Below, in pieces: positions 7,301-25,123 of a stretch of DNA of 43,006 nucleotides. The stretch comes from a virus: positions 1-43,006 of the IMG/VR virus record IMGVR_UViG_3300029286_000093. The stretch is one strand, 5' to 3'. The notes beneath the pieces are model-generated. The model did no database searches. It saw only the letters and a list, made by a program, of their open reading frames with translations, and was not told the origin of the DNA. Position numbers and translations under genes: made by a program. Every line of letters starts with the position of its first letter. Position 1 is the stretch's first letter.

Positions 7301-8226
7301 CAATTTTCAAGCACATCGGTCATGAACAGACCTGTTTTTGAATTTCCTGATGCATTGTGGCTTTCATCCATCACAATGATGCTTCCACGTGCCTGACTGA
7401 GAATGAAATTCCGCTTGTCAGCGTATTTTGGGTTGTTGAATTGAGAATAGGTTGTAATAATTGCCTTGTATTTTGACGGCAATTTAGTTGATTGCAAAAT
7501 GCTCATGGTTTCTTTTGCAGGTAAACCTTCGTAAATTACACTTCCATCTTCATCACGGATATCGGTTTTACTGCCTTTGCCGTTTACGATAAACGGCCAT
7601 ATCCGGTTTTTGCCTGAATTTTCGTAATTGGGGTTTGTTTTGTACGAAACAATTTCTTCCATCGGGTTTTCAAGTTGGTATTGCTCATAATCGTCAATTG
7701 AGCCGTACTCATCTTGTTCATCTTCTGAAAGTTTTTCCCATGCCTTATAATTTATTTGTTTGTACTTTTTTTCTCCGGCAATTTTCAGTTTTACGTTATC
7801 ATCGGCACCAATGCTATTCAAATCACGGTAAATATCGCTGAACAGGTTTGGCTTTTCAGTAAAGAAAATGGGAGTAATGCCTTTGTGTACAGCATATTTT
7901 ATTAGAGCTGCAGCAATACGGCCTTTACCTATACCGGTCTGGTCGCCTACAATAACACCCTGCTGCTTTTCTTCGATGTTATAAATAGCCATTGCCACGG
8001 CTTCAATTTGCTCTGCACCTAACGATTGACATAACTGGCTGCTATCCCAGCCAAGTTTTTTCATCACGTATTGGTTAAGGCTACCTACCTGTAACTTTAT
8101 TTTGCGCATGGCTACATGGGTTTCAAAATCCATGCTGTCTGGCACAATGGTATCCAATGATTTACATGAAATTTCGGTTGGGATATACGGACCTTGCAGC
8201 CCAGTTTTTTTTGTTCGTTTTTTCAT
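4330..8226 (-). CDS. Strawberry-notch-type SF2 helicase (polyvalent)
   Basis: A 1298-residue helicase. Motif I is GDQTGIGKGR (94-103), the hallmark variant of the strawberry notch (Sno) group; motif II is DESH (near 285), motif III is FLSATF and motif VI is QKRGRINRTGQ (near 690). The rest matches the long C-terminal half typical of Sno-like proteins. Phage relatives (for example the helicase half of P1 DarB) pair with adenine methylases and protect incoming DNA. Its start overlaps the methylase stop by 4 bp. Likely substrate is double-stranded DNA; function in protection is inferred. Confidence 0.85.
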   Translation of the reverse strand: MKKRTKKTGLQGPYIPTEISCKSLDTIVPDSMDFETHVAMRKIKLQVGSLNQYVMKKLGWDSSQLCQSLGAEQIEAVAMAIYNIEEKQQGVIVGDQTGIGKGRIAAALIKYAVHKGITPIFFTEKPNLFSDIYRDLNSIGADDNVKLKIAGEKKYKQINYKAWEKLSEDEQDEYGSIDDYEQYQLENPMEEIVSYKTNPNYENSGKNRIWPFIVNGKGSKTDIRDEDGSVIYEGLPAKETMSILQSTKLPSKYKAIITTYSQFNNPKYADKRNFILSQARGSIIVMDESHNASGNSKTGLFMTDVLENCKGVLFLSATFAKRPDNMPIYATKTSLRDANMTKEALIKAIDKGGVALQEVISSQLVSEGQMLRRERSFEGIEVNYLTLDDKAVEHSAISDNVTSIMRDIISFQKKFIKPRIKDMEDELIDDYADAELTKGTKDMGIDSTPYFSKVFNVVNQLLFSIKAADVADQALIRLRQGKKVIVAFSNTMGAFLENIENEDGDKVKANDVVNVDFTTVLKKGLDGVMRYTVKRPNSEPEVHYFTVHDLSVQGQEEYFRINNKITQISSGITISPIDVIISKLEGAGYSVKEVTGRKILVNFLNNSLNGLGRTQGNSNRNITGIVKNREQITTNEAFRLFNNNEVDVLLINQSGSTGASAQALPTKKITADKVKQRWMIMLQAELNINTEVQKRGRINRTGQIMLPGYDYVTSAIPAEKRLMMLLQKKLKSLDANTTSNQKNSEKVFSFEDFLNKYGDKIVYQYLLENVMLNDQIGDPLKINDSNEVPDITNAAHRVTGRVAILSTEEQTKFYNEVSKLYADHVTFLKDTGEYNLEVEIVDLQADTIERDVLVAGKGGLSVFATDTYIEKCIVNNLKKPYKKEEIRQILVSMLGDKTADELQKEIITNFLEHENARYLKDQEIVNNKFDIQQDNIETEAKYLKLTEDAMRIEYKNMRTYEIANSRGTALERENEAWKRRVNYLFPIFKHFKPGMVIQYPLIGDNTVKGICLGYALDKSAANPYAPSAVKLRFAVANGIKSIVLSCTGDPRSTLNSIIANGEVYRYEAAQVYENWDTIVSESSNDHIVKYIVTGNLLQGYGAAAGKLISYTTVDGNTKKGILMPDGYDPTQTGKGSTQVLLPIKLEVAIKIIENMSYNSIIETDQGLTISREWGNFELITNGVSVQRFGKILKDKELIQYLRNTKDGFYKTGNKWKASVSNTNLVPALQVLGQNHGMNINVSRAVFDKYKSLVPQKNMNETDEITAQAVEMFLKDKAAKIDKLSKIHKLGIELKIMMQ

Positions 8227-10517
8227 TGTATGTTTTTTAAATCAATTGCTAATTTTATAATTTTTGATGTAGGTTTTATGTTCAGAAATGACATAAGCGG
8301 GTCAATGATTTGTTCTGAATTTATTGCATTTTTTAAAGTTACGCCCTCATTTACCGGTATAAGGCTTTCAGGCACATCACGCAATTCAATTATGGTTCCT
8401 GAAGACCAGCCCACAGATGGGTATTTTGAACTACCTGTGCTATAAACACCACCTTTTTTTATTATTACACCACTTCCAAGTTTAACACTACTGGTTTTTG
8501 AATAGGTAAAAAACAGTTCACGGCCAGCAAAAAAAACTGATTTATTCTTTGAAACTTTTGCTTTGTCAAGATCAATAATAATATCTGCTAAAACTGGTTG
8601 AAATTCACCATCGGTACCATAAATTTTAATGAGTGCTTTTCTGATTTCAGGTTCATCCCTTACATCAAATTGCCAGTAACTGCCTGTCCATTTACCATTT
8701 AATTTGTGAGCAAAATCAACAAAATCACGCAGATATGGGCTTTTTGTGTAAAGTTTACCATCCTGTGTAAACACTTTAATATCTGATATTCCATCCAGAA
8801 TGGATCCACGGAGCATTTTCAAATCTATACCAAATTGGTGTATTTTGGTATAATTTGGTATTTGGTATTGAATAAGATCAGCAACAGCATCAAACAGTTT
8901 ATCAAAACTATCAATCACAACTTTACCATTTGCCTGAATGGGAGGGAAACCACCTTTTTGCGCCCTGCGGCCATTTACAAGTATGAGCCGCACATCAAAA
9001 CTGGTTCCCTGACGGCTGTACAGTTTATGCCCATCAAGATTTAACACTGCTTCAACGTAGTAATTGGCATAAAGCCATACAAAAAAATCACGGTTTTTGC
9101 CTGACTGAATTTTACCAACACGATCAAATTCAGTATGGCCACCAATGATAATTGCTGCACGGCCTTCATCCTTCATGCAGTTAAGTGCTTCGTAAGCCAT
9201 TTGGTGATCGAGAACCTTAAACTGGCCTTTTTCTGCCATTTCACCAAAGGGAGGATTGGTAATTACACCATCAAACAGGTAAGCATACCGGTAATTTGTT
9301 GAAACAGGTCCGCTGGCATCAAATTTTGTAACTATGCCATAATCCTGATGGCGAAGATTGGCATTGCGTACTTCGTCAATTTCATTTACAAATGTGTGTT
9401 TTTCGGGCAGAAATATGGTTAGTAAACCATTTCCGGCTGAGGGTTCAAAATACTGCGCTGTGGGGGGCTGATTGCTGGCAACGTACATTCCGGCCACAAA
9501 TGCGATGGGTGCAGGTGTACTGTACTGCTGAAGCATAATTGTGGTACTTGTGCGGAGTGATAGGTTTACCTGAAGATGATAAAGTTTTACAATGCTATCG
9601 AACCTTTGATACAGGCTTAATGCGGTATTGTGTGCAATTCTTCGGGCTATGCGAACAATGGCATATTCGGTTAATTCTTTTACCAAGCGCAAATCGCTGA
9701 TACCAAAACCTGCTGCTACTTTTTCAACCTGGGTTTTGTTCAGTTTTTCACCTGCATCAATTTGTTTTTCAATTTGATAGGTGAATGATTCAGCGGCTTC
9801 AGAAAGTGCTTTTTTGGCTGGCTTTGATTCAGTTAATAGTGCAATTTCATTTTTAACTTTATCAATTTTATCCTTTAAAGCATCCTCAGTTTTAGATGTA
9901 GAGTTTACCATTGATCTAAACTTTGCTCCTGCATGATTATTTTTTCTTAATTTTTCATTGTTGGCTATTTTTACATCAAACAGTTTGCTTTCTAAATCTG
10001 ATAATTTTTGTTTTAATTTATCACTTGACGATATTTTATCTAATGCCGGGTAATCAGCCAGCACTTCTGCCGGAACTGGTTTGCCTTCAGCGAGAGCTTG
10101 TTCTATCATTTTTTTATGCAGCCGTTCAATAACTGTTGTTGTATTTGGTTGCGACTTTGATTCAATTTCAAATGTTTTATTGGTATCGCCCCATTTTACG
10201 GTTGTTTTGAATGTATAAACTGGTTTTTTGTTTACAATTTTCACACTGCTTTTAAGTGGAATAATTTTTTCAGCATTTATACTTGAAGCCTCAACCATTG
10301 TCATTTGCCAGGGTTCCTTCACAGCGTTGTTGGCATGGATAGGGTTGTTTAATAATTTATTGACAAATTCTTCTCTTTGCGGCCTTCCGGTATCAATATG
10401 GTCAATTGAAAATTTATCAAAGTTATGCGGAGAACCGTGATAAGCGGTCATGCCTAAAATATTTTTGCCCCTGCTGTGAGGGGTCTGGGGGTTGTTATGC
10501 TCGGCTTGTTTCTTCAT
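8223..10517 (-). CDS. N6-adenine DNA methyltransferase with N-terminal ART-like scrap
   Basis: A 764-residue protein. The methylase core has YSTPAPIA (motif X type), FEPSAGNG (motif I, about 356-363, S-adenosylmethionine binding) and NPPFG (motif IV, about 420-424, catalytic). Residues 25-44, AYHGSPHNFDKFSIDHIDTG, match the opening strand of polyvalent ADP-ribosyltransferase domains, but the rest of that domain is absent. Residues 50-310 are helical and charged. The gene carries the AACCCCACAACCC leader before ATG and heads the trio with the helicase and LPD1 protein. No cognate nuclease is visible, so protective methylation is more likely than a restriction system. Confidence 0.82.
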   Translation of the reverse strand: MKKQAEHNNPQTPHSRGKNILGMTAYHGSPHNFDKFSIDHIDTGRPQREEFVNKLLNNPIHANNAVKEPWQMTMVEASSINAEKIIPLKSSVKIVNKKPVYTFKTTVKWGDTNKTFEIESKSQPNTTTVIERLHKKMIEQALAEGKPVPAEVLADYPALDKISSSDKLKQKLSDLESKLFDVKIANNEKLRKNNHAGAKFRSMVNSTSKTEDALKDKIDKVKNEIALLTESKPAKKALSEAAESFTYQIEKQIDAGEKLNKTQVEKVAAGFGISDLRLVKELTEYAIVRIARRIAHNTALSLYQRFDSIVKLYHLQVNLSLRTSTTIMLQQYSTPAPIAFVAGMYVASNQPPTAQYFEPSAGNGLLTIFLPEKHTFVNEIDEVRNANLRHQDYGIVTKFDASGPVSTNYRYAYLFDGVITNPPFGEMAEKGQFKVLDHQMAYEALNCMKDEGRAAIIIGGHTEFDRVGKIQSGKNRDFFVWLYANYYVEAVLNLDGHKLYSRQGTSFDVRLILVNGRRAQKGGFPPIQANGKVVIDSFDKLFDAVADLIQYQIPNYTKIHQFGIDLKMLRGSILDGISDIKVFTQDGKLYTKSPYLRDFVDFAHKLNGKWTGSYWQFDVRDEPEIRKALIKIYGTDGEFQPVLADIIIDLDKAKVSKNKSVFFAGRELFFTYSKTSSVKLGSGVIIKKGGVYSTGSSKYPSVGWSSGTIIELRDVPESLIPVNEGVTLKNAINSEQIIDPLMSFLNIKPTSKIIKLAIDLKNIQ

Positions 10518-10528: not shown

Positions 10529-11335
10529 TTAAGTTATAAGCACATCCATTGCGCCATTGGTGCCTAAAAGTTTTAAAATATAGTTGGCGGTGGTGGTGGG
10601 CTGGCTGGCCAGCAATGCTGAGTAATTGCCTGAACCGGGTCGGTTAAAGTAGCCACGGTTGTAACGTATAACCACTTTATCCATTCGCAAATCGGTGCCG
10701 GAGGTTTCTTCGTCAATCAGAATGCCTAAATAAATTGCACCAAGCAGAATGTTCAGTTCAGGTTTTAAAAGATCGGTATTGTACAGGTTTGTTGCTCCAT
10801 CGCCCATAAACTTCATGCGGAGTATGGCATCGAGCCGTGAACCTATAATTTTACGGATTACGGCCTTTTCTGCTTCGCTCAGACGATTGTTTTTGTTTTC
10901 AAGGTAAATTACATCGTTCATGCTGGCAGGGTCAATCTGCATTAATCCTACTGCGTTTCCGCTTACGGCATATTCAATGCCATTGCTTTCGATAAAAATA
11001 AAAGATGCAATAACATCGGCTGGCACATTGGTAAGCCTTGCTGCCTGGTTAATGCTGGTTGAATAGGTTGTTTTGATCTGATTAATGCGGCTGGCTATCA
11101 TTGCTCTGTCGGCTGGCTGATAGTAACCCATTTCAATGATAGGAACCTTAAAATTAATTACATCACCTGCTGTACCAAGGCCACTGAGCAACATGCAGCC
11201 ATCGGGCTTGCACCCGGCTATCTGCCTGTTGGCTTTGGCTGCGGCTGTGGCTTTGTTTGTGAGCTTGCTGTACAATAAGTACCCTGCTGCTCCAAACAGG
11301 CCAATGCTGGCGGTGTATAGTATTAATTTATTCAT
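10529..11335 (-). CDS. Membrane-anchored lytic transglycosylase (SLT fold)
   Basis: A 268-residue protein with a signal-anchor helix (residues 5-23), a linker containing SGLGTAGDV (51-59) and a soluble lytic transglycosylase domain: FIFIESNG with the candidate catalytic Glu 117, then GNAVGLMQID (127-135) and YNRG near 230. It would cleave glycan strands of peptidoglycan without hydrolysis. The anchor and neighbours suggest a virion-associated entry enzyme rather than a soluble endolysin. Its start overlaps the 74-aa gene by 8 bp. Confidence 0.82.
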   Translation of the reverse strand: MNKLILYTASIGLFGAAGYLLYSKLTNKATAAAKANRQIAGCKPDGCMLLSGLGTAGDVINFKVPIIEMGYYQPADRAMIASRINQIKTTYSTSINQAARLTNVPADVIASFIFIESNGIEYAVSGNAVGLMQIDPASMNDVIYLENKNNRLSEAEKAVIRKIIGSRLDAILRMKFMGDGATNLYNTDLLKPELNILLGAIYLGILIDEETSGTDLRMDKVVIRYNRGYFNRPGSGNYSALLASQPTTTANYILKLLGTNGAMDVLIT

Positions 11336-12290: not shown

Positions 12291-13769
12291 TTATGGTTTA
12301 AATAATAAACGAAAGCCTATATCAGTAGAATTAGAGGAAGCAAGCATATGTGCAAATCCAATGCAAAGACCAATATCATACTGGTATGAAGCATGACCCG
12401 AAGTTAAATAACAACTCCATCCATCATCAAGATATGGCCCGTAATAATAATCACACCATCCGGTTGATGAATTTGCCCCTAATGTAAGGGGTAATAATAT
12501 ACCATCTTCACCAAATATATTGTTTAAAATGAATCCATAAGTGATAGGTAATTCGCCTAAAAGCGTATAATTTGTTACTGTATCATCAGCAAAACCAGTT
12601 ACACCTTTTTTGCCATAAACATAAGCTTTACCACCAGTTCTGTTTATATTGATACCATCTAAGCGTTTAAAAAAATGACCAAAAGGATTTTCAATACCAC
12701 GGTAACTATTACAAGTAAAAGTTCTGTTTACGCCAGCTTCTTTAAAATCAGTTTTAACAAAACAAACTTCGCCAGTTTGGTTGCCAAGTGAATTACTTGT
12801 TCCGCACTTACAAAAAGGATTTTTGTTATTGAAATAATTCCATTCTGCTAATACTGCATTAGAAATACCAATGCCTAAACCGCCTTCCCTGTATCCTTCA
12901 GCAGTAAGTGTAGCATTAACAGCTAACTGACTATTAGTTGTAGCATATTCAATAACAAACAACCATCGCCAATAGCCATAATATTCAAATGGTTCTTCAC
13001 ACCAGCCTGTACCTTTAGCATCGGCATAAGCCCTTTCTTTTTCATGTGAAAGATTTGTAACAGGGCATCCCAGCAATGTATTAACACCAGCATCATAAGT
13101 GGCATTGTTATTTCCGCCCCTGTATGTTTCAGTTATATTTGCAACAGAATAAGCTATTAAAGTATCTCTATTTAAACTGGCCTCATATGCTGAAATATAA
13201 TGCTTTTCAACTAATTTAAAACCAGGCAGGGCATATTCTGAAACTGCAACGCAATTGTACAGATTAGCCCCTGAAACTTCGGTGTAAAACCGGATATAAA
13301 AGGCCGGTATTTCTACCATAACATCGCCATCAGTGCCGTTTAATATTGCTTCACCGCTTGTTTCGCTAAGATTACTATTTGTTGCATGTAAATAGTAATT
13401 AACAACACCGTTTTTTACTAAACAGCGGCGCATTTTTGTGTGTATAGGCAATCCGCCGACAACCTTATGTAAATCGGTATTGCCAATGCGGGTAAGTGTT
13501 GGGCTTGTTTGCCCAACAAGCCTTTTTACACCATACCACATATTGTGATAATTAAATTGTGCTGTTATATCAATCCATTGATTTTCTGCATTATTTAATA
13601 TAAATATTTTGCCATCAAATTCAGCACAACTAACATACATACCAGCATATCTAAGTCCATTTTCAAGATAAGCCAGCATTGCCGCATTTGTTTCAAAGTG
13701 TACATCAGGATCTAATGCACCTGCGTATTGCCTTTTAAACTGATTAATAAACTGAATTTGTTCTGGCAT
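12291..13769 (-). CDS. C-type-lectin-like fibre, second (unmatched) DGR-type target
   Basis: A 492-residue paralogue of the 15598-17079 protein, highly similar over the whole body (shared QIQFINQFKRQYAGALDPD start, TSPTLTRIGNTDLHKV and EEPFEYYGYWRWLFVIEYAT). The C-terminal GWCDYYYG...IGFRLLFKP segment has the lectin-like fold seen in DGR targets. Its last 38 codons differ from the template repeat at many synonymous and non-adenine positions, so this copy is not a recent product of that template. It is probably a receptor-binding fibre. Its ATG abuts the stop of the 102-aa gene. Confidence 0.8.
   Translation of the reverse strand: MPEQIQFINQFKRQYAGALDPDVHFETNAAMLAYLENGLRYAGMYVSCAEFDGKIFILNNAENQWIDITAQFNYHNMWYGVKRLVGQTSPTLTRIGNTDLHKVVGGLPIHTKMRRCLVKNGVVNYYLHATNSNLSETSGEAILNGTDGDVMVEIPAFYIRFYTEVSGANLYNCVAVSEYALPGFKLVEKHYISAYEASLNRDTLIAYSVANITETYRGGNNNATYDAGVNTLLGCPVTNLSHEKERAYADAKGTGWCEEPFEYYGYWRWLFVIEYATTNSQLAVNATLTAEGYREGGLGIGISNAVLAEWNYFNNKNPFCKCGTSNSLGNQTGEVCFVKTDFKEAGVNRTFTCNSYRGIENPFGHFFKRLDGININRTGGKAYVYGKKGVTGFADDTVTNYTLLGELPITYGFILNNIFGEDGILLPLTLGANSSTGWCDYYYGPYLDDGWSCYLTSGHASYQYDIGLCIGFAHMLASSNSTDIGFRLLFKP
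12297..12410 (-). repeat. Diverged variable-region counterpart (VR2)
   Basis: The segment occupies the position of the variable repeat in the second target. It aligns with the template only as protein (SSxxA...GFRL pattern). At the DNA level it differs at third codon positions and at G, C and T positions, unlike adenine-specific mutagenesis. Confidence 0.5.
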
Positions 13770-14077
13770 TATACTATTTTTTTTACAATTTCCTTACATT
13801 CTTCAACATACGTGTTGTATGCTTCAAATTCGTTATCGGTATCAATACCGGCGGCAAGTTTGCGCTGGATAGCAATTTCATCGTTTATACTATATTTAAG
13901 CCGTACCATTGCTACAATAAAATCGTCTTTTGTTTCGACCTTGGCTTCTACATAATCGGCTGTGTGCATAGTTGTACCTTCACGTTCAACAGCACTATGG
14001 TTATAATACAGTCTGTAAGGCCCTGCCGGGGTTAGAAACTCTGTATTTGGATGCGGTGTTGTGCTTTCTGATTTCAT
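13769..14077 (-). CDS. Small protein between fibre and DGR genes, 102 aa
   Basis: Unrecognised with certainty. The N-terminal half has YRLYYNHSAVEREGTTMHTADYVEAKV (given here only as a description of residues 22-48), followed by a helical C-terminal half. It looks like the small fibre-adjacent proteins of phages that may help fibre assembly. Stop and start of neighbouring genes touch (TAATG type), so it is coupled to the second target gene. Confidence 0.55.
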   Translation of the reverse strand: MKSESTTPHPNTEFLTPAGPYRLYYNHSAVEREGTTMHTADYVEAKVETKDDFIVAMVRLKYSINDEIAIQRKLAAGIDTDNEFEAYNTYVEECKEIVKKIV

Positions 14078-14085: not shown

Positions 14086-14379
14086 TTATTGAAATGAATA
14101 TCCAAGGTTTTCATTAACTATTTGCGTCAAAAATGGAAAAGAATCTGAGGGTACAGCTTCTAAAATTGCTGCCAACCTGCGTGAGCCACAAAAAATTACC
14201 CTGAAATCGTTATCAACTTTTATTTGAATTGTAAGCAAAATTGATTCGTTTTTTTTGCTTGGTTCTGTTTTAAAGTTATGGATTTCAATTTCACGGTTGA
14301 ATAGTTTAGCTATTTTAATTTTTTCGCCAACATAACCATGAGGGTTCAGGCTTATATTAAGGTCTGAAAATCGTTTCAT
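14086..14379 (-). CDS. Small beta-rich protein next to DGR reverse transcriptase, 97 aa
   Basis: A predicted beta-rich protein: KIKIAKLFNREIEIHNFKTE, then ILLTIQIKV, VIFCGSRRLAAILE and FPFLTQIV. I recall similar small proteins with a GS+xL signature in Bacteroidota phages, possibly binding nucleic acid. It is not the four-helix Avd protein usual in DGRs. Its start overlaps the end of the reverse transcriptase by 4 bp, so it is a candidate replacement accessory factor. This role is inference. Confidence 0.6.
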   Translation of the reverse strand: MKRFSDLNISLNPHGYVGEKIKIAKLFNREIEIHNFKTEPSKKNESILLTIQIKVDNDFRVIFCGSRRLAAILEAVPSDSFPFLTQIVNENLGYSFQ

Positions 14380-15434
14380 GCTGACAATTTTTTTAATAAA
14401 TTTATTGAATTACAGTGCTTTGCCCAACCATAATGACCGCAATGCAATTGAGCCAGTTTTATGGTTTTGTTTTTTGATACGGCTTTAGCAAAACGTGTTT
14501 TTATTGATTTCCGTAAAAGCGTATGCGTATGAAAAAACCTATACCCAACAAAATCAATCCCCCGTATAGAAACCGGAAATATTTGGTAATTGCTTTTAAT
14601 GGTAAGTTTGAGAGCATTAACAAGGTATTCTTGTATTTTTATAAATAACTGATGCAATTCAGTTTTTGTTGATGCAAGAATTACTATATCATCGGCATAT
14701 CTGAAGTAATGTTTTATATGCTGTGTTTCTTTAATCCAGTGGTCGAAACCAGTCAGGTAAAGATTTGCAAAATACTGGCTTAAATAATTTCCAATTGGAA
14801 CTCCGGGAGCCGAATCTATTATTTCATCAAGTAGTTGCAAAAGTTTGCCATCTTTTATTTTTTTGCGTAAAACTATTTTTAAAATATCATGGTCAATTGA
14901 AGGGTAATATTTCCGAATATCAAGTTTTAAACAATATGTTGTATCTTCCGGGAATCGGGTTAATGTTTCTTTTACATCCGTAGCTGCTGAATGAATACCA
15001 CGTTTTTTTATACAACTGTATGTGTTTTTTGTCATTGTACTTACCCAAACAGGTTCAAGCACATTCATTATTGCATGGTGTACAATACGATCAGGGTAAT
15101 ATGGTAGCCGATAAATATCCCTTACCTTGCCATTTGGTGTAGTTAACTGAAATACTTTGTATTGTGATGTTTTAAATTCGCCTGACAATAATAAACTATG
15201 TAATTTTTGCAGGTTGATTTCAGCATTTTTATCAAAAACTTTTACACCATATTTATTAGCTTTGCCATGCCTGGCTTTTTTTTCGGCCAGTTTAAGGTTT
15301 TCAATACTGCAAATATCACTAAACAAATTATTAATCCTTTTCATCTGCTTTAAATTACCATCTTTTTCGCTAATGCTACCAAAGCTGGTGTGAGTAGATT
15401 TATTTTTTACCAAGAGGTAAGGCTCTAAATTCAT
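14376..15434 (-). CDS. DGR reverse transcriptase
   Basis: A 352-residue reverse transcriptase of the diversity-generating retroelement clade. It begins with the typical ICSIENLKLAEKKARHGK segment, has the DGR-type motif IGNYLSQ (about 214-220) and the catalytic YADD at 246-249, with LDIRKYYPSIDH upstream carrying the first metal-binding Asp. It would copy template-repeat RNA into adenine-mutagenised cDNA that replaces the variable repeat of the target fibre. I chose MNLEPYLL as start; the frame stays open upstream through the template repeat to MKKQAAK at 15581 (401 aa), and MKRINN at 15344 (322 aa) is also possible. Confidence 0.93.
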   Translation of the reverse strand: MNLEPYLLVKNKSTHTSFGSISEKDGNLKQMKRINNLFSDICSIENLKLAEKKARHGKANKYGVKVFDKNAEINLQKLHSLLLSGEFKTSQYKVFQLTTPNGKVRDIYRLPYYPDRIVHHAIMNVLEPVWVSTMTKNTYSCIKKRGIHSAATDVKETLTRFPEDTTYCLKLDIRKYYPSIDHDILKIVLRKKIKDGKLLQLLDEIIDSAPGVPIGNYLSQYFANLYLTGFDHWIKETQHIKHYFRYADDIVILASTKTELHQLFIKIQEYLVNALKLTIKSNYQIFPVSIRGIDFVGYRFFHTHTLLRKSIKTRFAKAVSKNKTIKLAQLHCGHYGWAKHCNSINLLKKLSA

Positions 15435-15440
15435 ATTATA

Positions 15441-15555
15441 AAAGCGTAGCTGAAACCCGATATTCGCATTCGCATTCGCAGCTGAATTATTCGCATTAAC
15501 GTAGGTGATACCTGCATTACCGCCATTATTCGCATTCGCTGACGACAGAGGGGCT
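15441..15555 (-). repeat. DGR template repeat (TR)
   Basis: A 115-bp repeat between the target gene and the reverse transcriptase, colinear with 15607-15721. On the coding strand it is full of AAT codons. Compared with the variable repeat there are 23 differences; 21 fall at template adenines and two do not (15446 and 15498). The end nearest the reverse transcriptase (15441-15460) is nearly identical and corresponds to the IMH-like end. Confidence 0.93.
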
Positions 15556-15597
15556 TTGAATTTAGCAGCCTGTTTTTTCATTTTTTCGCTTTTCGTT

Positions 15598-17079
15598 TTA
15601 CGGTTTAAAGCAGAGCCGAAACCCGAAATGCGCATACGCAGCCGCAGCCGAAGTAGACGCATACACGTAGGCGAGACCCGCATAACCGCCAGTAAACGCA
15701 GTCGCCGACGACAGAGGGGCTGTCCAGCCATCAGCAGTAGGATAATAATAATAGTCGCACCAACCGGCAGATGAACTTGCCCCACCGCCAACTGTTAAAG
15801 GCAACATTATTCCATCTTCGCCAAACATCTGGTTTAAAATATAACCATCAGCAACAGGCAATTCACCTAATAGAGTGTAACCTGTTGCTGTACCATCAGC
15901 AAACCCCGATACACCTTTTTTGCCATAAGCATAAGCCTTGCCGCCTGTTTTGTTTATATTGATACCTTCTAAACGTTTATACAGATGCCCAAAAGGATTT
16001 TCAATACCACGGTAACTATTACATTTGAAAGTTCTATTTACGCCAGCTCCTCCAAAATCAGTTTTAACCAAACTAACTTCGCCGGTTTGGTTGCCAAGTG
16101 AATTACTTGTTCCGCACGGGCAAAATGGGTTATAAGTATTGAACGTGTTCCATTCAGCGGATACAGCATCGATAATACCATTGCCTAAACCGCCTTGCCT
16201 GTATCCTTCAGCAGTAAGTGTAGCATTAACAGCTAACTGACTATTAGTTGTAGCATATTCAATAACAAACAACCATCGCCAATAACCATAATATTCAAAA
16301 GGTTCTTCACACCAGCCTGTACCTTTGGCGGCGGCATAAGCCCTCTCATTTGCCCGTGTAAGAGTTGTAACCGGACTGCCAAGCAATGTATTAACACCAG
16401 CATCATAAGCGGCATTGTTATTTCCTCCCCTGTATGTTGCTGTATTGTTGGCAACAGAATAGGCTACCAGCGTACTGCGGTTTAAACTTGCTTCATAGGC
16501 TGAAATATAATGCTTTTCAACCAATTTAAAACCTATTAAAGGGTATTCTGAAACTGCAACACAGTTGTACAAATTAGACCCTGATACTTCGGTGTAAAAG
16601 CGAATATAAAAGGCCGGTATTTCTACCATAACATCACCATCAGTTCCGTTTAAAATTGCCGCACTGCCTGTATCACGCAGTGCGCTGTTCGTAGGGTGTA
16701 AATAGTAATTTACTACACCATTTTTAACAAGGCAACGACGCATTTTTGTATTTACAGGCAATCCGCCTGCAACTTTATGCAAATCGGTATTGCCAATTCG
16801 TGTAAGTGTAGGACTTGTTTGCCCAACAAGCATTTTTACACCATACCACATATTGTAATAATTATATCCACCAACAACATCTGTCCATACAGTTTTTGCA
16901 TTATTCAGTACAAATATTTTACCCTCTAATTCATTGCATGTTACAATCATTCCGGCATATCGCAAAGGATTAATAAGATAATCCTGCATTTCTGCTTTTG
17001 TTGCAAATATAATATCAGGGTCTAATGCTCCAGCGTACTGCCTTTTAAACTGATTGATGAACTGAATTTGCTGTGTCAT
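15598..17079 (-). CDS. C-type-lectin-like fibre, DGR target with matched variable repeat
   Basis: A 493-residue fibre-like protein. The N-terminal QIQFINQFKRQYAGALDPD segment is shared with its paralogue, the middle has EEPFEYYGYWRWLFVIEYAT, and the C-terminal domain has GWCDYYYYP...DGW and GFRLCFKP, typical of the lectin-like fold of DGR targets. Residues about 454-491 are encoded by the variable repeat, where template Asn codons have become T, F, Y, S, A or H. It probably binds the host surface, and the DGR would diversify its specificity. It starts 2 bp after the stop of the 317-aa gene. Confidence 0.92.
   Translation of the reverse strand: MTQQIQFINQFKRQYAGALDPDIIFATKAEMQDYLINPLRYAGMIVTCNELEGKIFVLNNAKTVWTDVVGGYNYYNMWYGVKMLVGQTSPTLTRIGNTDLHKVAGGLPVNTKMRRCLVKNGVVNYYLHPTNSALRDTGSAAILNGTDGDVMVEIPAFYIRFYTEVSGSNLYNCVAVSEYPLIGFKLVEKHYISAYEASLNRSTLVAYSVANNTATYRGGNNNAAYDAGVNTLLGSPVTTLTRANERAYAAAKGTGWCEEPFEYYGYWRWLFVIEYATTNSQLAVNATLTAEGYRQGGLGNGIIDAVSAEWNTFNTYNPFCPCGTSNSLGNQTGEVSLVKTDFGGAGVNRTFKCNSYRGIENPFGHLYKRLEGININKTGGKAYAYGKKGVSGFADGTATGYTLLGELPVADGYILNQMFGEDGIMLPLTVGGGASSSAGWCDYYYYPTADGWTAPLSSATAFTGGYAGLAYVYASTSAAAAYAHFGFRLCFKP
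15607..15721 (-). repeat. DGR variable repeat (VR1)
   Basis: A 115-bp copy of the template at the 3' end of the target gene, starting 6 bp upstream of its stop codon on the coding strand. The 21 adenine-derived differences include A to G, A to C and A to T changes, as expected for error-prone DGR reverse transcription. The IMH-like terminal part (15607-15626) contains CGGGTTTCGGCTCTGCTTT, against CGGGTTTCAGCTACGCTTT in the template. Confidence 0.93.
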
Positions 17080-18322: not shown

Positions 18323-18915
18323 TTGATGTGCTTTAAATTTACGTTTGTAATTACGGTATTTGAATCGGAGGGTATTACACTTACAATTTCCGGCCTCTTT
18401 TGCCAAAAAAACAGTTTTTTTATCCCTTCACGTGGTTTTTTGCTGAGTGTAACGGTAAGATCAAGTTTGTGCAATAACTTTATGCTCCAGTAGTCGTTAA
18501 TTTCAATACCAGAACACTGTATTGTTGGGCTGGTGTAACTAAAAACTTTTACAGGAACGGTATCGTTAATTGTAGAATCGGTTTCGTGTACCAGAAATTT
18601 TTTTGTGGTTTCTGTATTTATGTTTGTTACTTGGTTCACGGCTTTCAAATTTAATGTTTTGCTCAGTTTTTCAAATTCACCGGCAAACAGGGTTTTAAAT
18701 TCATCCTTGGTAAAGGTTTGAGTTTGCTTCTGGTAAATGGCAATGTTGTTTTTATAGGTGCGTGTAACGCTATCCATTTCGGTTTTAAAATTGCCGGCAA
18801 TGCGTGAATTGTCGTTTTGTAACTCAATGTTTTTGCGATATACAAAAACAGTCATTGCTATTGATAACAACAACAACAACACGAGGGAACTTGATATTTT
18901 GAATTGTGAAATCAT
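18319..18915 (-). CDS. Spanin-like single-pass membrane protein, 198 aa
   Basis: An N-terminal signal anchor (about 10-26) is followed by a long helical stretch (30-90), a region rich in Thr and Val, and a KKPREGIKKLFFWQKRPE segment near 155-172. It resembles the DUF6549-type proteins I know from Bacteroidota phages, which are often considered inner-membrane spanins. It overlaps its neighbours by 4 bp on each side, between the CHAP-like enzyme and the fibre genes. Confidence 0.55.
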   Translation of the reverse strand: MISQFKISSSLVLLLLLSIAMTVFVYRKNIELQNDNSRIAGNFKTEMDSVTRTYKNNIAIYQKQTQTFTKDEFKTLFAGEFEKLSKTLNLKAVNQVTNINTETTKKFLVHETDSTINDTVPVKVFSYTSPTIQCSGIEINDYWSIKLLHKLDLTVTLSKKPREGIKKLFFWQKRPEIVSVIPSDSNTVITNVNLKHIK

Positions 18916-19445
18916 TTGGTAAATTTTGAAACGGTGTAAATTTGTGCTTTCAATCTTCTCTTACGGTACACACCATCACCTTCACGGCTTCCGGCTTCGT
19001 TTGTGTTGCCCTCAACTGTAAAGGTATATTTGCCATCCGGCCAACTTTCAATGAATCCTACATGCGCTATGCGCTTTTTGCTCAAAAAATAAATGCCAAA
19101 CACATCTGCGGTTTGTGGGGTCTGGCCTCTGCCTTGTTTCCAGATCACATTCGTTGTGAACCATGAGGATGACCATGCCGGGGCTTTCAATACAAAACTA
19201 CTATCACACTGTTTTATGCAAGTGTACACAAATGCGGCACACCAAGCATCACCTTTGCGAACTCCGGCCATGTGCTGAAAGTATTCAACCATCGTTCCAT
19301 CATTGCGGCCTGTGGCTTCACGTATGCCAACGTATTGCGTAAACTGTTCATGTACACAATTGCGTGTTAAACTGCCAGAAATGCCAGCAGAAACGCTAAG
19401 AAGTACAAGACAAACAGTGATAATGTAAGTTTTGATTTTTGCCAT
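18912..19445 (-). CDS. Secreted CHAP-like peptidoglycan endopeptidase/amidase
   Basis: A 177-residue protein with an N-terminal signal peptide or anchor (about 7-25). The catalytic pattern is KGDAWCAAF with nucleophile Cys 69, AHVGFIE with His 128, and VEGNTN with Glu 145/Asn 147, as in CHAP/NlpC-type cysteine peptidases. It would cut peptide bonds in peptidoglycan for entry or lysis. The first 79 bp of coding sequence overlap the preceding membrane protein gene in another frame. Confidence 0.82.
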   Translation of the reverse strand: MAKIKTYIITVCLVLLSVSAGISGSLTRNCVHEQFTQYVGIREATGRNDGTMVEYFQHMAGVRKGDAWCAAFVYTCIKQCDSSFVLKAPAWSSSWFTTNVIWKQGRGQTPQTADVFGIYFLSKKRIAHVGFIESWPDGKYTFTVEGNTNEAGSREGDGVYRKRRLKAQIYTVSKFTK

Positions 19446-19744
19446 AAATCCAAGGGTTTAACTCCATTTGAAGATGTGAAATGATTCAGGTTTTTTTCAA
19501 AAAAATCATCAAAATAATTGTACACCTGCGGAAAGTTTATCTTCAGCATAAACCACGCAAAACCATTGAACAGGAACACTGCAATTAATGCAATTACAAG
19601 TTTTTGCAGAATTCCGGCATCGTAGCTTGCGGCTGTGGGGTCAATAAGCCTGAGCAGGTAAGGGGAGAACCAGAATAGCAGAATTGCCAGCGGTACGCTG
19701 ATAAACTCATGCCATGTTAATAAGAATTTCCAGATTTTTGTCAT
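19367..19744 (-). CDS. Three-helix membrane protein, holin candidate, 125 aa
   Basis: Three hydrophobic segments are visible (about 15-32, 45-66 and 105-124), with a charged segment (about 72-100) between the second and third. Location directly before the CHAP-like enzyme, with a 79-bp overlap, is typical for a holin or virion membrane protein. The family is not recognised with certainty. Confidence 0.6.
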   Translation of the reverse strand: MTKIWKFLLTWHEFISVPLAILLFWFSPYLLRLIDPTAASYDAGILQKLVIALIAVFLFNGFAWFMLKINFPQVYNYFDDFFEKNLNHFTSSNGVKPLDLWQKSKLTLSLFVLYFLAFLLAFLAV

Positions 19745-20187
19745 AACGAAATACCTTGCAGTGGCACGTTAAATGAAGAACCTGTGACAACTGAATAATC
19801 GGCTGCATTAATGGTTGAATGGCCAAATACGGCTATTACAGCAGCCTGTGTTAATGTTCCGAACTTTCCGTCAACTGACAGTTTCGGATTAACCTTTGCG
19901 CTTTTATTGAGGTAGGTTTGCAGTTTTTTTACTGCATCGCTTTCGCAAGTGGTTCCGGTGTAACCTGAATACAGTTTCAGTGGCAGAAAGGCCGCTGTAC
20001 CTGTGCTGGCACAATTCCCACCAACAGGGGGTTCTGTGGTATCGGGAGGGGTTGTTGTGTTGGCACTGTTGCCTTTCAGAATATAATACAATCCTATGGC
20101 TATTGCACTTGCAGGTACACCGTACATGAGTGCTTTTTTCCAGAATGTTTTCTTTTTTTGGGCAGTTTTGCCGCTAATTTTTTTCAT
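19741..20187 (-). CDS. Membrane-anchored peptidoglycan-binding protein
   Basis: A 148-residue protein with a basic N-terminus and signal anchor (about 18-37), a Thr/Pro linker and a PG_binding_1-like domain (about 85-125) with VKKLQTYLN and LSVDGKFGTLTQAAV. It would hold the particle or a lytic enzyme to the cell wall. It overlaps both neighbours by a few bases, within the peptidoglycan-active gene cluster. Confidence 0.8.
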   Translation of the reverse strand: MKKISGKTAQKKKTFWKKALMYGVPASAIAIGLYYILKGNSANTTTPPDTTEPPVGGNCASTGTAAFLPLKLYSGYTGTTCESDAVKKLQTYLNKSAKVNPKLSVDGKFGTLTQAAVIAVFGHSTINAADYSVVTGSSFNVPLQGISL

Positions 20188-20566
20188 AAGGTATATTTAT
20201 TGCTATAAGGCTCAGTACACCGAGCAATGTAATAACATAAAATGGCCACATTTTGCGTGTTGTGGCTGGTGTTGTATTGTCAGGTTTTATTTCAACAATT
20301 GGTAAACTATACTCAGTTGGTTCAAGTGCAAAATTTACAATCACTGAGGGCAAATAGCTTTCAATAACGGTTTTTGTCAATGGTTTGTAACCCATCACCA
20401 TTGCAGTAACATAAAAACCGCCTCCGGCCTCAAGGTTGTAATTTCCATTTGCATCACTTTGCGTTCCCCAATTGGCCAGCGTAATTTTTCCATCCTTGCC
20501 TGAGTAAAAAATGTTGGCAAATGGCAGCGGTTGGCCAGTGGCTTTATCGGTTATTTTGCCTGTCAT
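20174..20566 (-). CDS. Carboxypeptidase-regulatory-like domain with C-terminal membrane anchor
   Basis: A 130-residue protein. Residues 2-85 form a CarboxypepD_reg-type beta-sandwich (GKITDKATGQPLPFANI, DANGNYNLEAGGGFYVTAMVMGY), common in Bacteroidota surface proteins. A short linker leads to a membrane helix (about 107-125). Such a domain on a viral membrane protein could be a surface or stalk module. It overlaps the lysozyme gene by 4 bp. Confidence 0.75.
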   Translation of the reverse strand: MTGKITDKATGQPLPFANIFYSGKDGKITLANWGTQSDANGNYNLEAGGGFYVTAMVMGYKPLTKTVIESYLPSVIVNFALEPTEYSLPIVEIKPDNTTPATTRKMWPFYVITLLGVLSLIAINIPYEKN

Positions 20567-21084
20567 ATAGCCTCCCTGTTTAAAAAGTAGAACAAAAAGC
20601 CTGCACCAATTGCCAAAATACCAATTCCCATAAACAGGGTGTTCTTAAATTCGGTATTGAAGTACATTTCAGCCTCCCTGAAGCGTCTGGCAGTTAAAAC
20701 AGGGCTTGGTATGCCCTGAGTTTTATTGTGCGCTAAAAACGCATCCCTGATAGCTGAATCGTTAGGATTAACCTTTGCAAGTTTTACAACATTGCTTTTT
20801 TTGAAATTTGGTTCGCCTAAATTGTAGCACAGGCTAACCAGTGCATCAAATTGATTTTGGCTAATATCCAAACCTTCATCATTTACTGCTTTCATTGCCC
20901 ATGCGGTGTCCTGAGTAAACAAGGCATCGCACTGGCTTTGAGTTTTTGTAGTTCCGGCAGTTACACCATAATGGCCATAACACACAGAAAACCCGGCACC
21001 GTCTTTATAAGCGGTTAAGCGCAAACCTTCTTCTTGTTTGAGAAAGGTTGTGCCATAAGCGGATAAACTGTATGTTGTAGCCAT
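20563..21084 (-). CDS. GH24 lysozyme with C-terminal membrane anchor
   Basis: A 173-residue protein. The N-terminal part matches T4-type lysozyme: EEGLRLTAYKDGAGFS carries Glu 19 and Asp 28 with the T4 spacing, followed by YGHYG; the usual Thr position is replaced by a Ser with a one-residue contraction. SLCYNLG (about 108-114) is the family's later motif. Unlike ordinary endolysins it ends in a membrane helix (about 150-168), so it is probably fixed in a membrane and used at entry. It would hydrolyse peptidoglycan glycan strands. Confidence 0.85.
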   Translation of the reverse strand: MATTYSLSAYGTTFLKQEEGLRLTAYKDGAGFSVCYGHYGVTAGTTKTQSQCDALFTQDTAWAMKAVNDEGLDISQNQFDALVSLCYNLGEPNFKKSNVVKLAKVNPNDSAIRDAFLAHNKTQGIPSPVLTARRFREAEMYFNTEFKNTLFMGIGILAIGAGFLFYFLNREAI

Positions 21085-21489: not shown

Positions 21490-21795
21490 TTAAATTGAAG
21501 TTCCTTGCAAACTATTGCACCGGCTGATACACCTGTTTGTATCGTTTTTGATTAACCCGGCTGGGTCAATCAGTACAGGGTCAATCAAATTTGGGTCAAC
21601 CTGTGTACCATAGGGAGGTAAAGTATTACCATAGGGAGGGTAAGCCACATAAGGCTTGGTAGGTGGTGTTACCACTGTTGGCTTTTCTTCAACAATTGGT
21701 GGCGTGGCAGCACTGGCCTTGTTACGGCCAAAAAACCACCAAACAATTGCTGCACCAATGCCAACTTTTATAAGTGTGTTTGTTGCGCTCATCAC
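21490..21795 (-). CDS. Small N-anchored membrane protein with Pro-rich tail, 101 aa
   Basis: It has an N-terminal membrane helix (about 6-22), then a Pro/Thr/Tyr-rich stretch (VTPPTKPYVAYPPYGNTLPP) and a short C-terminus with two Cys residues. It overlaps the next gene by 4 bp. It is one of a series of single-pass proteins in the late block and a plausible membrane virion protein. Confidence 0.65.
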   Translation of the reverse strand: MMSATNTLIKVGIGAAIVWWFFGRNKASAATPPIVEEKPTVVTPPTKPYVAYPPYGNTLPPYGTQVDPNLIDPVLIDPAGLIKNDTNRCISRCNSLQGTSI

Positions 21796-22091
21796 ATTGA
21801 TTTGTTAAGTAAACCATTTACCGCTGCTCCATTGCCTTGTGGGTCAATTTTAGCAACTGTATTAATAATTTTTTGAGAAAGCGTTACACGTTTGCAGGTG
21901 TAGCTTCCATCAGCATTTTTTATTGAAGTATAGCCTTTTGGGCATGTTACCTTAACAGGTGTGGGAGGGAGTTCTGGTACGGTTGCGGCTGTTGCGGCTG
22001 CTGGGTCTGCATTCTGGCTTCGGGAATATAAATACAATCCCCCAACTGCTGCAACTCCAATACCGATTAATAACAAGGTTCCTATTTTCAT
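21792..22091 (-). CDS. Small N-anchored membrane protein, 99 aa
   Basis: The N-terminal membrane helix (3-21) is followed by an Ala/Pro linker and a short domain with CPKGYTSIKNADGSYTCK, probably a disulphide-closed hairpin. It is coupled to the 101-aa gene by an ATGA overlap. It is a membrane virion protein candidate. Confidence 0.65.
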   Translation of the reverse strand: MKIGTLLLIGIGVAAVGGLYLYSRSQNADPAAATAATVPELPPTPVKVTCPKGYTSIKNADGSYTCKRVTLSQKIINTVAKIDPQGNGAAVNGLLNKSM

Positions 22092-22102
22092 TTTAGTATT
22101 TA

Positions 22103-22924
22103 TTAAATTGAGAATCTATTTTGGTTTATTCCGTTCAACGCACCGGCATCAAACACGTATGGATTGTATGAACCATTTTGGTTAACATACACCGTGGGCG
22201 AAACAAATTGTATGGCACCTTTCCAGGCATATACTATTTGTTTTGTGCCATCGCTGCTATGCACAAGCAATTCACTGAACCACACATTATCAGTAAGGAA
22301 CTGGTACCATGCGGCATCAAAGTAAAATTCAAGACCTGTGGCATTTCCAATTACTGTGTTGGCTGGCACTTCTTTTATTTGATTTGCAAAAAAATCAATT
22401 ACAGGTGAATTTAAAATAACAGGATTTTTGCGAATCATTACAGGTTTTGTGGCAATTGCCAGCATTCCGGCATTGGTTGTAGGGGTTGTTGAAACAATAG
22501 TATTTCCGGGTGTGGTGCCTTTGGTCTGAAGGAGATCCATAAAGGTCTTATAATCGTCTGTGCTTAACTTGGTCGTAAGCACAGAAGTCAGGTTATCGCC
22601 TGTAAGATCAGCATAAAAATCAGATACAGCATTGTAATCTTTGATGCGGCTGGCAATGTCAAACAATGCCTTCTGGTCAATTGCAATACCGAACCATCCG
22701 GAATGTAATGCGTTCTCAATACCTGCTGCAAACCTTGCATTCTCATTGGTTTGCATTTTATCGTTGAGTAAATTCTGTCTGTATTTCCGGTACAGGTATT
22801 TACCACCGATATACACACCAAGGCCAATGCCAGCATAAATTCCGGCCTTTTTCAAACCGTCTATGGCATCGGGTTTTGCCTGTGTTTGTGCTGGTGCAGC
22901 AATTATGTACTGAGGTTGGTTCAT
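22103..22924 (-). CDS. N-anchored membrane protein, 273 aa
   Basis: It has a short N-terminus, a Gly/Tyr-rich membrane helix (about 28-44; AGIYAGIGLGVYIGGKYLY), a helical region (50-130) and a beta-rich C-terminal half. The gene is coupled to the 58-aa gene (ATGA overlap). The family is unrecognised; topology and position suggest a virion membrane protein. Confidence 0.65.
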   Translation of the reverse strand: MNQPQYIIAAPAQTQAKPDAIDGLKKAGIYAGIGLGVYIGGKYLYRKYRQNLLNDKMQTNENARFAAGIENALHSGWFGIAIDQKALFDIASRIKDYNAVSDFYADLTGDNLTSVLTTKLSTDDYKTFMDLLQTKGTTPGNTIVSTTPTTNAGMLAIATKPVMIRKNPVILNSPVIDFFANQIKEVPANTVIGNATGLEFYFDAAWYQFLTDNVWFSELLVHSSDGTKQIVYAWKGAIQFVSPTVYVNQNGSYNPYVFDAGALNGINQNRFSI

Positions 22925-23100
22925 CAGATGTATCTTAATGCGGTTTTTACAATTCCGGGATTTGCTTTTACCTTTTTTGCAAGCGTAATCAAATCAGATG
23001 ATTGAATCTGGTTAAGCATCACATTTACGGCATCAACAATTTCACGTGCCTGAGCTTCGTCAACAGCCTTTATGTTTACTGAAATTTTGAATTCTCTCAT
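22924..23100 (-). CDS. Small helical protein, 58 aa
   Basis: The frame MREFKISVNIKAVDEAQARE...IVKTALRYI starts in an ATGA overlap with the stop of the coiled-coil gene and ends in an ATGA overlap with the 273-aa gene. This double coupling strongly supports it as a gene. A beta strand followed by two helices is likely; family unknown. Confidence 0.7.
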   Translation of the reverse strand: MREFKISVNIKAVDEAQAREIVDAVNVMLNQIQSSDLITLAKKVKANPGIVKTALRYI

Positions 23101-23966
23101 AATGAACGGCTGCTTTTTAGTTGATCGGCAACAAGTTTAATGAATCCTTTTTCATTGTTGAAAATGCTTATCAGAAGCATAAATTCAGATAATTCAGCAT
23201 CATTTAACCTGCTGATAAAATCTTTTATGGCCTGATATTGTGGTTCTCTTGCATCGCCTGTTTCAAGTACGGCCATGCCACCGTTTGCAGGCTGCTGGCC
23301 AGCATTGTTACCATTTAATAAATTACCAAGTCCGGTATTTTGAAAAAGCATACCTGCCAATGGGAGAATTTGTTTAAAAATTTCTCCAGGTGTTTGTTTT
23401 GCTTCTTCAATCTTTTTTTCAAGGGCTTCAATTTCGTTTTCAAGGGCTTCATTGCGGTCACGTTCATTTTCCAATTCACGTTCAAGTTTTGCCAAATCAT
23501 TGGTCAACTCTGAAATTTGTGATTTTTGCGCTAATTCTTCCCTGATTTTTGCTTCAATTTCGCCAAGGTTTTCAATACCTTTAAGGGTATTTGTTGCCAT
23601 TTTTGCTGCATGGGTTTCTGCTGCAACAAAATCATATCCCCTTTCAGGAATATTTTCTTCTTCAGCAAAAAGATTGATTTTATGTGAAACTGTGCGTTTA
23701 GCACTTGGTGTTAAACCATCCCATTCTTCATAATGAATGAATGTTGGAATTGGTTTCATGTCAAGTATTTTTGCAATACCTTTATCGTAATCATCAACTG
23801 TTGAACCTTTGTAAAGGGTATAAATCAATTTGTGATCTTCCGGATACTTGTATCCGATTTGAATTGAATATTTTTGATCGTTCGGTTTAAATCTTTTTCG
23901 GCCTCGTTGAAGTTCAATTACACGCTGCCTGAAGCTATCTATTTTTGCCTGTGCTTGTTCTAACAT
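23097..23966 (-). CDS. Coiled-coil protein, 289 aa
   Basis: The N-terminal region is mixed, with DDYDKGIAKILDM and HYEEWDGLTPSAKRTVSHK; a long coiled coil rich in Glu, Leu and Lys spans about residues 130-190; then comes a Gly/Asn-rich linker (about 205-225) and a helical C-terminus. It lies between the small beta proteins and the membrane proteins of the late block. A scaffolding or internal virion protein would fit, without direct evidence. Confidence 0.6.
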   Translation of the reverse strand: MLEQAQAKIDSFRQRVIELQRGRKRFKPNDQKYSIQIGYKYPEDHKLIYTLYKGSTVDDYDKGIAKILDMKPIPTFIHYEEWDGLTPSAKRTVSHKINLFAEEENIPERGYDFVAAETHAAKMATNTLKGIENLGEIEAKIREELAQKSQISELTNDLAKLERELENERDRNEALENEIEALEKKIEEAKQTPGEIFKQILPLAGMLFQNTGLGNLLNGNNAGQQPANGGMAVLETGDAREPQYQAIKDFISRLNDAELSEFMLLISIFNNEKGFIKLVADQLKSSRSL

Positions 23967-23977
23967 CTTACATACAT

Positions 23978-24325
23978 TTACTTACTGCAATGAATAGGTA
24001 CTATTTTTATAAACTCAACATAGAGTTTGTTTGCTGTGTCATTATTTCTCACGCTCACAATGCCTTTAAAAAGTTGATGTTTGTGAAAAACAGAGTTCTG
24101 TGTTGCTGCATTTAATACCAGTGCGGCATCAGTGCTTTTGATAAAGCCATTTGCCACGGAACTATCAGTATAATAATTTCCGATCAACAGAAAATCATTG
24201 GCTTCACCGGTTTTTTCGTTTGATGAGGCTGTAACTTCTAATACATAACTTTCAATATCGTATTTTTCAATACCATATTCTGTCATTTTCTGTTTTATGA
24301 AATCTAATAAATTAAGTACCAACAT
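23978..24325 (-). CDS. Small beta-rich virion protein candidate, 115 aa
   Basis: Unrecognised. After a short helix it shows alternating strands (YVLEVTASS, FLLIGNYYTD, VSVRNNDTANKLYVEFIKIV), suggesting a single jelly-roll-like domain. It is the third of three consecutive small beta-rich genes after the capsid candidate, consistent with minor capsid or vertex proteins. Confidence 0.55.
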   Translation of the reverse strand: MLVLNLLDFIKQKMTEYGIEKYDIESYVLEVTASSNEKTGEANDFLLIGNYYTDSSVANGFIKSTDAALVLNAATQNSVFHKHQLFKGIVSVRNNDTANKLYVEFIKIVPIHCSK

Positions 24326-24330
24326 AGTGT

Positions 24331-24684
24331 TTAGGTATTATCTGTTTCAAAATGAATATAAACTGTGTAGGGGTATGCTGAAGCATTGCCTAAATCCTGC
24401 ACATAGCCTGTGGCATAAAGTGGCATAACATCGCATTGCGGGTCAAATGCTTTTGGCATCCGGCTTTCTTTGCCGCCTTTGTTATATACCAATTTTGTAA
24501 ATGTGGCATCTTTGCCGTTGTTCAAGCCAAATCCTACCATTGCCAGAGCTTTTGTAGCATTTGTGGCACTGCACCCTACGGCCAATCCTGTGCATTTTAT
24601 TGCATCACCAGGCAGTTTGTGGCTTATTTGTACAATGCTTCCGCTTGCCGGTATTGTAATGCTTTTGGTTGAGTAGGTTCTCAT
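24331..24684 (-). CDS. Small beta-rich virion protein candidate, 117 aa
   Basis: Strand-rich throughout: KSITIPASGSIVQISHKLPG at the start and YPYTVYIHFETD at the end. The length and strand pattern fit a single beta-barrel. It is in the run 24325-25786 with the other capsid candidates and separated from them by short gaps. Confidence 0.55.
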   Translation of the reverse strand: MRTYSTKSITIPASGSIVQISHKLPGDAIKCTGLAVGCSATNATKALAMVGFGLNNGKDATFTKLVYNKGGKESRMPKAFDPQCDVMPLYATGYVQDLGNASAYPYTVYIHFETDNT

Positions 24685-24691
24685 GCTCAGG

Positions 24692-25106: not shown

Positions 25107-25123
25107 AATTTTTGATGGACAGA

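Follow-up and report, generated by a model that had tools for sequence, protein, structure and literature searches.

Does the reverse-transcriptase cassette in this viral DNA amount to a diversity-generating retroelement (DGR), and what kind of virus carries it? The stretch analysed, hereafter the window, is the whole of IMG/VR record IMGVR_UViG_3300029286_000093 (43 kb), which IMG/VR classes as a virus. The initial annotation had described, at 14376–17079, an active-looking DGR that varies the receptor-binding tip of a candidate tailless virus, and had singled out the host element as the unusual part. The cassette is a genuine, complete and orthodox DGR, and we judge it probable that its carrier is a tailless, membrane-containing DNA virus of Bacteroidota, whose presumed spike it diversifies. 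The cassette is ordered as target, template repeat (TR), reverse transcriptase (RT) and then a 97-aa gene, with the variable repeat (VR) inside the target:

15598–17079, minus strand: DGR target (variable) protein, 493 aa, presumed virion spike or receptor-binding protein (VR at the 3' end; PHROG 5302; homology)
15607–15721, minus strand: VR, 115 nt, 92/115 identical to the TR, 21/23 differences at template adenines
15441–15555, minus strand: TR, from the repeat finder, with the AAT-rich codons usual for a DGR template
14376–15434, minus strand: DGR reverse transcriptase, 352 aa (IGNYLSQ and YADD; PHROG and Pfam matches)
14086–14379, minus strand: candidate DGR accessory protein, 97 aa, not Avd-like by sequence, conserved beside the RT

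The repeat pair was picked up mechanically by a repeat finder (115 nt, 80% identity), which confirmed the earlier observation, and every coordinate first given proved correct. A recount on the coding (minus) strand returned the same 23 differences over 115 positions, 21 of them at TR adenines; changes thus affect 21 of the 30 adenines and two of the 85 other bases (Fisher p=5.7e-14; binomial p=8e-11), with near-equal replacement bases at the changed adenines (C/T/G = 8/7/6). The two remaining changes are a synonymous T->G adjoining a changed adenine and a C->T six bases from the VR 3' end. The VR is in frame, its 3' boundary lying nine bases short of the end of the target gene, the TR is intact, and the ATG of the RT sits 7 nt past it. 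A BPP-1-like hairpin was sought after the VR, with no convincing candidate. DGR-type RTs were recognised by [LIV]GxxxSQ in place of QGxxxSP, plus YxDD. The window enzyme, which is full length with intact motifs, carries IGNYLSQ and YADD and matches the PHROG reverse transcriptase (E=6e-116) as well as Pfam RVT_1. These motifs, together with the adenine-biased repeats, support the identification as a DGR. The range first proposed encloses the RT and target genes and leaves out both the accessory gene and a target paralogue at 12291–13769.

Relatives of the RT were collected from IMG/VR as 80 loci (L002–L081) with about 52–63% identity to the window enzyme, none being found above about 64%, and a scan identical to that of the window gave an adenine-biased TR/VR pair in 68 of them. 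The closest pair of relatives, the IMG/VR contigs L009 and L010, agree at every position of the RT, the TR and 400 bp of upstream sequence, and their VRs (9575–9689) have nine differing sites, all opposite a template adenine. Because these contigs differ in the VR at template adenines alone, with RT, TR and upstream sequence unchanged, the RT clade of the window is, on this comparison, diversifying its VRs in nature. The description of the window copy as active-looking is thereby supported indirectly: we infer retrohoming in this virus from the near-absence of non-adenine differences and from the L009/L010 comparison. A recent fossil, in which adenine-biased differences persist after retrohoming has been lost, would accommodate the two non-adenine differences and the single VR. 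We regard it as unlikely, given the full-length RT with intact motifs, the intact TR and accessory gene, and the in-frame VR; moreover, decay would hit all bases, as it does in the paralogue, whereas 21 of the 23 differences here fall at adenines.

Homologues of the 97-aa gene lie near the RT in 51 of the 80 loci by tblastn and in 69 by profile, mostly less than 20 nt from the RT stop, and share the consensus MKxFSDxNIK...KIKIxxILNxEIxV...FTGSxxL...FPFxTTI. DGR accessory proteins known so far are of the Avd, HRDC or MSL type (PMC10053308). The 97-aa protein had no match in Pfam or NCBIfam, and a Pfam scan of the cassette neighbours returned nothing fitting any of these three types; the bAvd hidden Markov model (HMM) was silent on the window, but silent on all controls too, and so proves nothing on absence. 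PDB sequence matches to the protein were judged to be chance. From its sequence, the protein looks like a further DGR accessory type and may be an Avd analogue; lying beside most RTs of the clade, it would represent a novel class of DGR cofactor.

The target protein matches PHROG 5302 'tail protein' (E=1e-100) and is 36–41% identical to DGR targets of other phages and about 30–40% identical to 'tail proteins' of crAss-like phages. Its earlier description as lectin-like was left unconfirmed by Pfam, NCBIfam and PDB-sequence searches, and no C-type lectin fold was recognised in it by sequence search; the link runs through homology to the DGR targets of other phages and through the literature. 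PDB sequence matches to the target were judged to be chance. The gene occupies a slot between a structural/lysis block and a methyltransferase/helicase block. Because members of the family described below hold different proteins at this site, which separates their lysis genes from the methyltransferase and where other spike- or fibre-like ones are found, the target is, by gene position, most likely the host-recognition spike of the virion. It is this placement of the VR gene that lends the receptor-binding tip of the initial annotation its plausibility.

Between the accessory gene and the next block lie two further genes:

13769–14077, minus strand: 102-aa protein between the accessory gene and the paralogue, with two weak homologues beside RT loci
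12291–13769, minus strand: target paralogue of 492 aa (aa identity 76% over the whole protein), currently no target of the DGR

The paralogue was considered as a second VR and rejected for want of adenine bias: its VR-equivalent region is just 33% identical to the target at the aa level, and its mismatches to the TR are about as frequent at A as at G and C (0.73/0.69/0.65). With its body conserved and its 3' end diverged, it may be a former DGR target that has been orphaned or a second spike that is now fixed.

In the mechanism we favour, the TR would be transcribed, the RT, aided by the accessory protein, would reverse-transcribe the TR RNA, placing random bases opposite its adenines, and the resulting cDNA would take the place of the VR at the target gene's 3' end, with the outcome that mostly AAT-type codons would be randomised on the surface of the likely host-recognition spike. 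The cassette would have been drawn from the DGR pool of tailed Bacteroidota phages and would have replaced or joined the relatives' spike gene between the structural/lysis and methyltransferase-helicase blocks.

The nature of the carrier has to be read from the remaining genes:

443–1210, minus strand: RadA/KaiC-like ATPase, weak matches to RadA/KaiC/DnaB-type families
1319–2197, minus strand: conserved N-terminal partner of the ATPase, fused to it in several relatives
4330–8226, minus strand: strawberry-notch helicase, a conserved pair with the adjoining methyltransferase across the family
8223–10517, minus strand: methyltransferase-like protein, the other member of that pair
10529–11335, minus strand: lytic transglycosylase (SLT) with hydrophobic N-terminus (Pfam SLT E=1e-8)
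18912–19445, minus strand: CHAP protein, first of the lysis/cell-wall genes (18912–21084)
19741–20187, minus strand: peptidoglycan-binding protein, lysis/cell-wall gene
20563–21084, minus strand: phage lysozyme with C-terminal transmembrane segment (hydropathy scan), lysis/cell-wall gene
21490–29991, minus strand: structural block with several single-transmembrane proteins (hydropathy scan), colinear in L082, L104, L117 and L118
23978–25087, minus strand: three small proteins (131, 117 and 115 aa), beta-rich by inspection, adjoining the capsid candidate, syntenic in L104 and L082
25124–25786, minus strand: candidate major capsid (jelly-roll) protein, 220 aa, family in L104, L117, L118, L137, L176 and pPP10, low-confidence AlphaFold2 models
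28163–29506, minus strand: transglutaminase-like protein with C-terminal transmembrane segment, marker of the structural block (Pfam DUF553; relatives at E=1e-23 to 1e-32)

The large proteins of the window comprise the helicase, the methyltransferase-like protein, LPD1, the RadA/KaiC-like ATPase, a DnaC-like loader, a Lin1244-type protein and the transglutaminase-like protein, the remainder being the two target-type proteins, the RT and one 317-aa protein without assigned function. No terminase, portal, HK97 capsid or tape-measure protein was recognised among them, and there was no tail match except the target itself. Almost all open reading frames (ORFs) above 300 aa are assigned elsewhere, and hardly any of suitable size is left for these four. 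In L032, a tailed relative that carries a DGR, the PHROG scan returned tail genes (E=5e-115 and 7e-92); among the seven family proteins put through the scan it found none. As scanned, the window virus falls outside the definition of tailed phages (Caudoviricetes). The block at 21490–29991 consists of small proteins, several with one predicted transmembrane segment, and some of the lysis proteins are also membrane-anchored; such a small or membrane-anchored structural and lysis set resembles the proteins of membrane-containing tailless phages.

Relatives of this gene set were sought in several collections. None was found in the 50,697 phage records: the concatenated structural proteins (1,948 aa, tblastn) went unmatched, as did the L118 homologues, and a near-identity search with the window gave no match. 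Single-sequence scans of viral contigs with the capsid candidate, the transglutaminase-like protein and the helicase also returned nothing. The first family member came from a scan of genome contigs, a Draconibacterium metagenome-assembled genome contig (L082), whose structural block follows the order of the window and in which, pairwise, only the transglutaminase-like protein is clearly significant. A search of 395 sampled genomes of one class of Bacteroidota uncovered proviruses, and the capsid-candidate profile matched 38 of these genomes; the closest provirus (L104/L105) carries the helicase (906 bits), the methyltransferase, the ATPase fused to the homologue of 1319–2197, and the capsid candidate with its neighbours. 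The IMG/VR contigs L117, L118, L137 and L176 share the plan (capsid candidate E=2e-7 to 4e-13), and Persicobacter psychrovividus NBRC 101262 bears the family block on the 53-kb circular pPP10 (L219, NZ_AP025302.1), where the 131-aa protein is also matched (E=5e-5), and on pPP1 (L220, NZ_AP025293.1); the capsid-candidate homologue of this strain has 280 aa. In proviruses, the two Persicobacter plasmids and IMG/VR contigs, the structural block is colinear with the methyltransferase, the strawberry-notch helicase and the RadA-like ATPase. The family is probably an overlooked, widespread group of Bacteroidota viruses, and probably a tailless one. Though a common provirus family, it was not found in phage reference records, its genes are annotated as hypothetical or plasmid, and a culture-collection strain, P. 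psychrovividus NBRC 101262, carries it.

Two side observations concern its annotation and arrangement. Both pPP10 and pPP1 are annotated as plasmids, and the block products on pPP10 are mostly named hypothetical proteins. Contig C3 of genome G050 has two similar structural/lysis cassettes (L100 and L102) about 105 kb apart with ordinary genes flanking them, which may represent satellites, particles that have been domesticated, or proviruses whose replication genes lie far away.

Among the family loci, L122 is the only one in which a target gene accompanies an RT of this type. Its order is target, TR/VR, RT and accessory homologue (L122:5014-5322), followed by methyltransferase, helicase, SLT and ATPase, and its TR and VR differ at 16 positions, all adenines. 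The L122 RT is 48% identical to that of the window and is not its neighbour in the RT tree, where the L122 branch is long and its placement unsure. The simplest reading of these sequences is that the window virus and L122 acquired their DGRs independently from the tailed-phage DGR pool, in which case DGRs probably appeared twice in the family.

The capsid candidate was modelled with AlphaFold for both L118 and the window. Each model comprises an N-terminal helix and a beta-sandwich-like core, and Foldseek matched both mostly to viral jelly-roll proteins, with the EhV-201 capsid on top for L118 (E=5e-4) and the FLiP penton for the window (E=3.6e-3, weak). Because low-confidence models can yield meaningless matches, these hits are support for a predicted jelly-roll fold, not proof of it. 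PDB sequence matches to the candidate, including those to complement receptor, were judged to be chance.

Several observations weigh against a tailless, membrane-containing carrier. The capsid models have a predicted local distance difference test score (pLDDT) of about 55 and a predicted template-modelling score (pTM) of 0.52–0.57, most of the Foldseek E-values exceed 0.001, template-modelling scores to the query are all below 0.5, and the lists also include jelly-roll decoration proteins of tailed phages. An FtsK/HerA packaging ATPase went unrecognised, the conserved ATPase looking RadA/KaiC-like. Terminase searches with phrog_2 and PF03237 were silent, yet silent in most tailed positive controls too, which makes them a weak test when taken alone. 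PHROGs calls the target family 'tail protein', its known members being from tailed phages; L122 is a 19.5-kb fragment without a capsid gene, placed in the family by its helicase, SLT and ATPase; and the family is known here from its sequences. With the packaging ATPase unrecognised and the capsid fold unproven, the window virus was not filed as Varidnaviria. Taillessness is nevertheless supported, though not proven: tail and packaging genes went unrecognised, relatives repeat the structural block, small membrane-anchored proteins are numerous, and the weak jelly-roll models point the same way. We infer a tailless virion with a membrane and a jelly-roll capsid. The earlier emphasis on the host element as the unusual part was well placed, since recognisable tail and packaging genes are absent and a related family is colinear.

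A virus-derived plasmid or integrative element, no longer making virions and using the DGR to vary a cell-surface or transfer-related adhesin, would account for the relatives on the annotated plasmids and for the short cassette-like copies in G050; plasmids and integrative elements, too, can encode large proteins of the polyvalent type, such as LPD1, methyltransferase and strawberry-notch helicase. This origin is improbable, because the conserved block encodes lysozyme, CHAP, SLT and amidase proteins, the jelly-roll-like protein is conserved and IMG/VR classes the record as a virus; relaxase and conjugation genes were unrecognised in the scans made. An ordinary but highly divergent tailed phage, its terminase, portal, capsid and tail genes past recognition and its DGR aimed at a tail fibre, would explain why the closest relatives of the target, RT, accessory gene and CHAP/transmembrane genes are in tailed phages, and the terminase HMMs did miss most tailed controls. 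We consider it distinctly improbable, because hardly any ORF is left to encode the missing proteins, the scanned relatives likewise lack them, PHROGs does pick up tail genes in a tailed relative, and the structural proteins are small, beta-rich or membrane-anchored. Lastly, a chimeric assembly joining a tailed-phage DGR segment to an unrelated element, as the tailed-phage affinities of RT and target might suggest, is very hard to credit, given the divergent target paralogue beyond the RT on the same contig, the lack of any RT relative above about 64% identity and the similar arrangement of L122 beside its own methyltransferase and helicase genes.

A direct repeat of 139 bp recurs at both ends of the window with 97% identity; it belongs to a tandem array, with two tandem copies at the right end. 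Since the ends share this repeat, the sequence suggests a circular or terminally redundant molecule, and the repeat region is a probable circular junction or replication origin. Positions 1–145 and the last 400 bases also hold terminator-like hairpins and ACGAACA-type short repeats.

Returning to the DGR of a probably tailless carrier, a wider claim can be framed, namely that an undescribed, widespread, tailless, membrane-containing and temperate Bacteroidota family has recruited DGRs at least twice independently, diversifying a vertex spike and not a tail fibre by way of a non-Avd accessory protein. We advance this tentatively, as a claim that is finely balanced and leans, if anything, towards doubt. 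If true, DGR-driven switching of host recognition would not be tied to tails, and the cassette would work on a tailless virion and have moved into such viruses more than once. No report of a DGR in a non-tailed virus was found in the open-access literature, as judged by titles and abstracts.

Among known systems, the window DGR works like those of crAss-like phages, Bacuni phages and the hankyphage (PMC7290462, PMC8143477, PMC6199706), and a survey of inducible gut prophages likewise describes tail-targeting DGRs in Bacteroidota phages (PMC12629997). What the window shares with the first three is adenine-specific TR/VR mutagenesis and a VR at the very 3' terminus of a tail or receptor-binding gene; the window element differs in having no recognisable tail or packaging genes and a 97-aa accessory family in place of a recognisable Avd. 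The prototype DGR of Bordetella phage BPP-1 follows the same logic, with TR RNA as the template for adenine mutagenesis of a VR located 3' in the gene of a receptor-binding protein, but BPP-1 is tailed, the target families differ and Avd is unrecognised in the window.

Of the tailless viruses, FLiP and PhiCjT23 (Finnlakeviridae and relatives), lipid-containing single-stranded DNA phages of Flavobacterium, also have Bacteroidota hosts, and the FLiP penton is the best, though weak, PDB fold match of the modelled capsid candidate. The FLiP genome is single-stranded and about 9 kb long, far smaller than the 43-kb window with its helicase, methyltransferase and lysis genes; its capsid is of the double jelly-roll type, and the phage records gave no sequence match between these phages and the window. 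Single-jelly-roll membrane viruses of the Helvetiavirae/Simuloviridae type differ in their smaller genomes and in the FtsK/HerA ATPase that is unrecognised in the window; they resemble it, with no sequence similarity recognised, in a small jelly-roll-like capsid candidate among small beta proteins, in membrane proteins and in a temperate or episomal habit. Relatives that had gone unrecognised are pPP10 and pPP1, in which no DGR of this type was seen and whose genes carry a plasmid annotation, mostly without an assigned function, but which share with the window, in the same order, the capsid candidate, the transglutaminase-like protein, the methyltransferase, the strawberry-notch helicase and the RadA-like ATPase.

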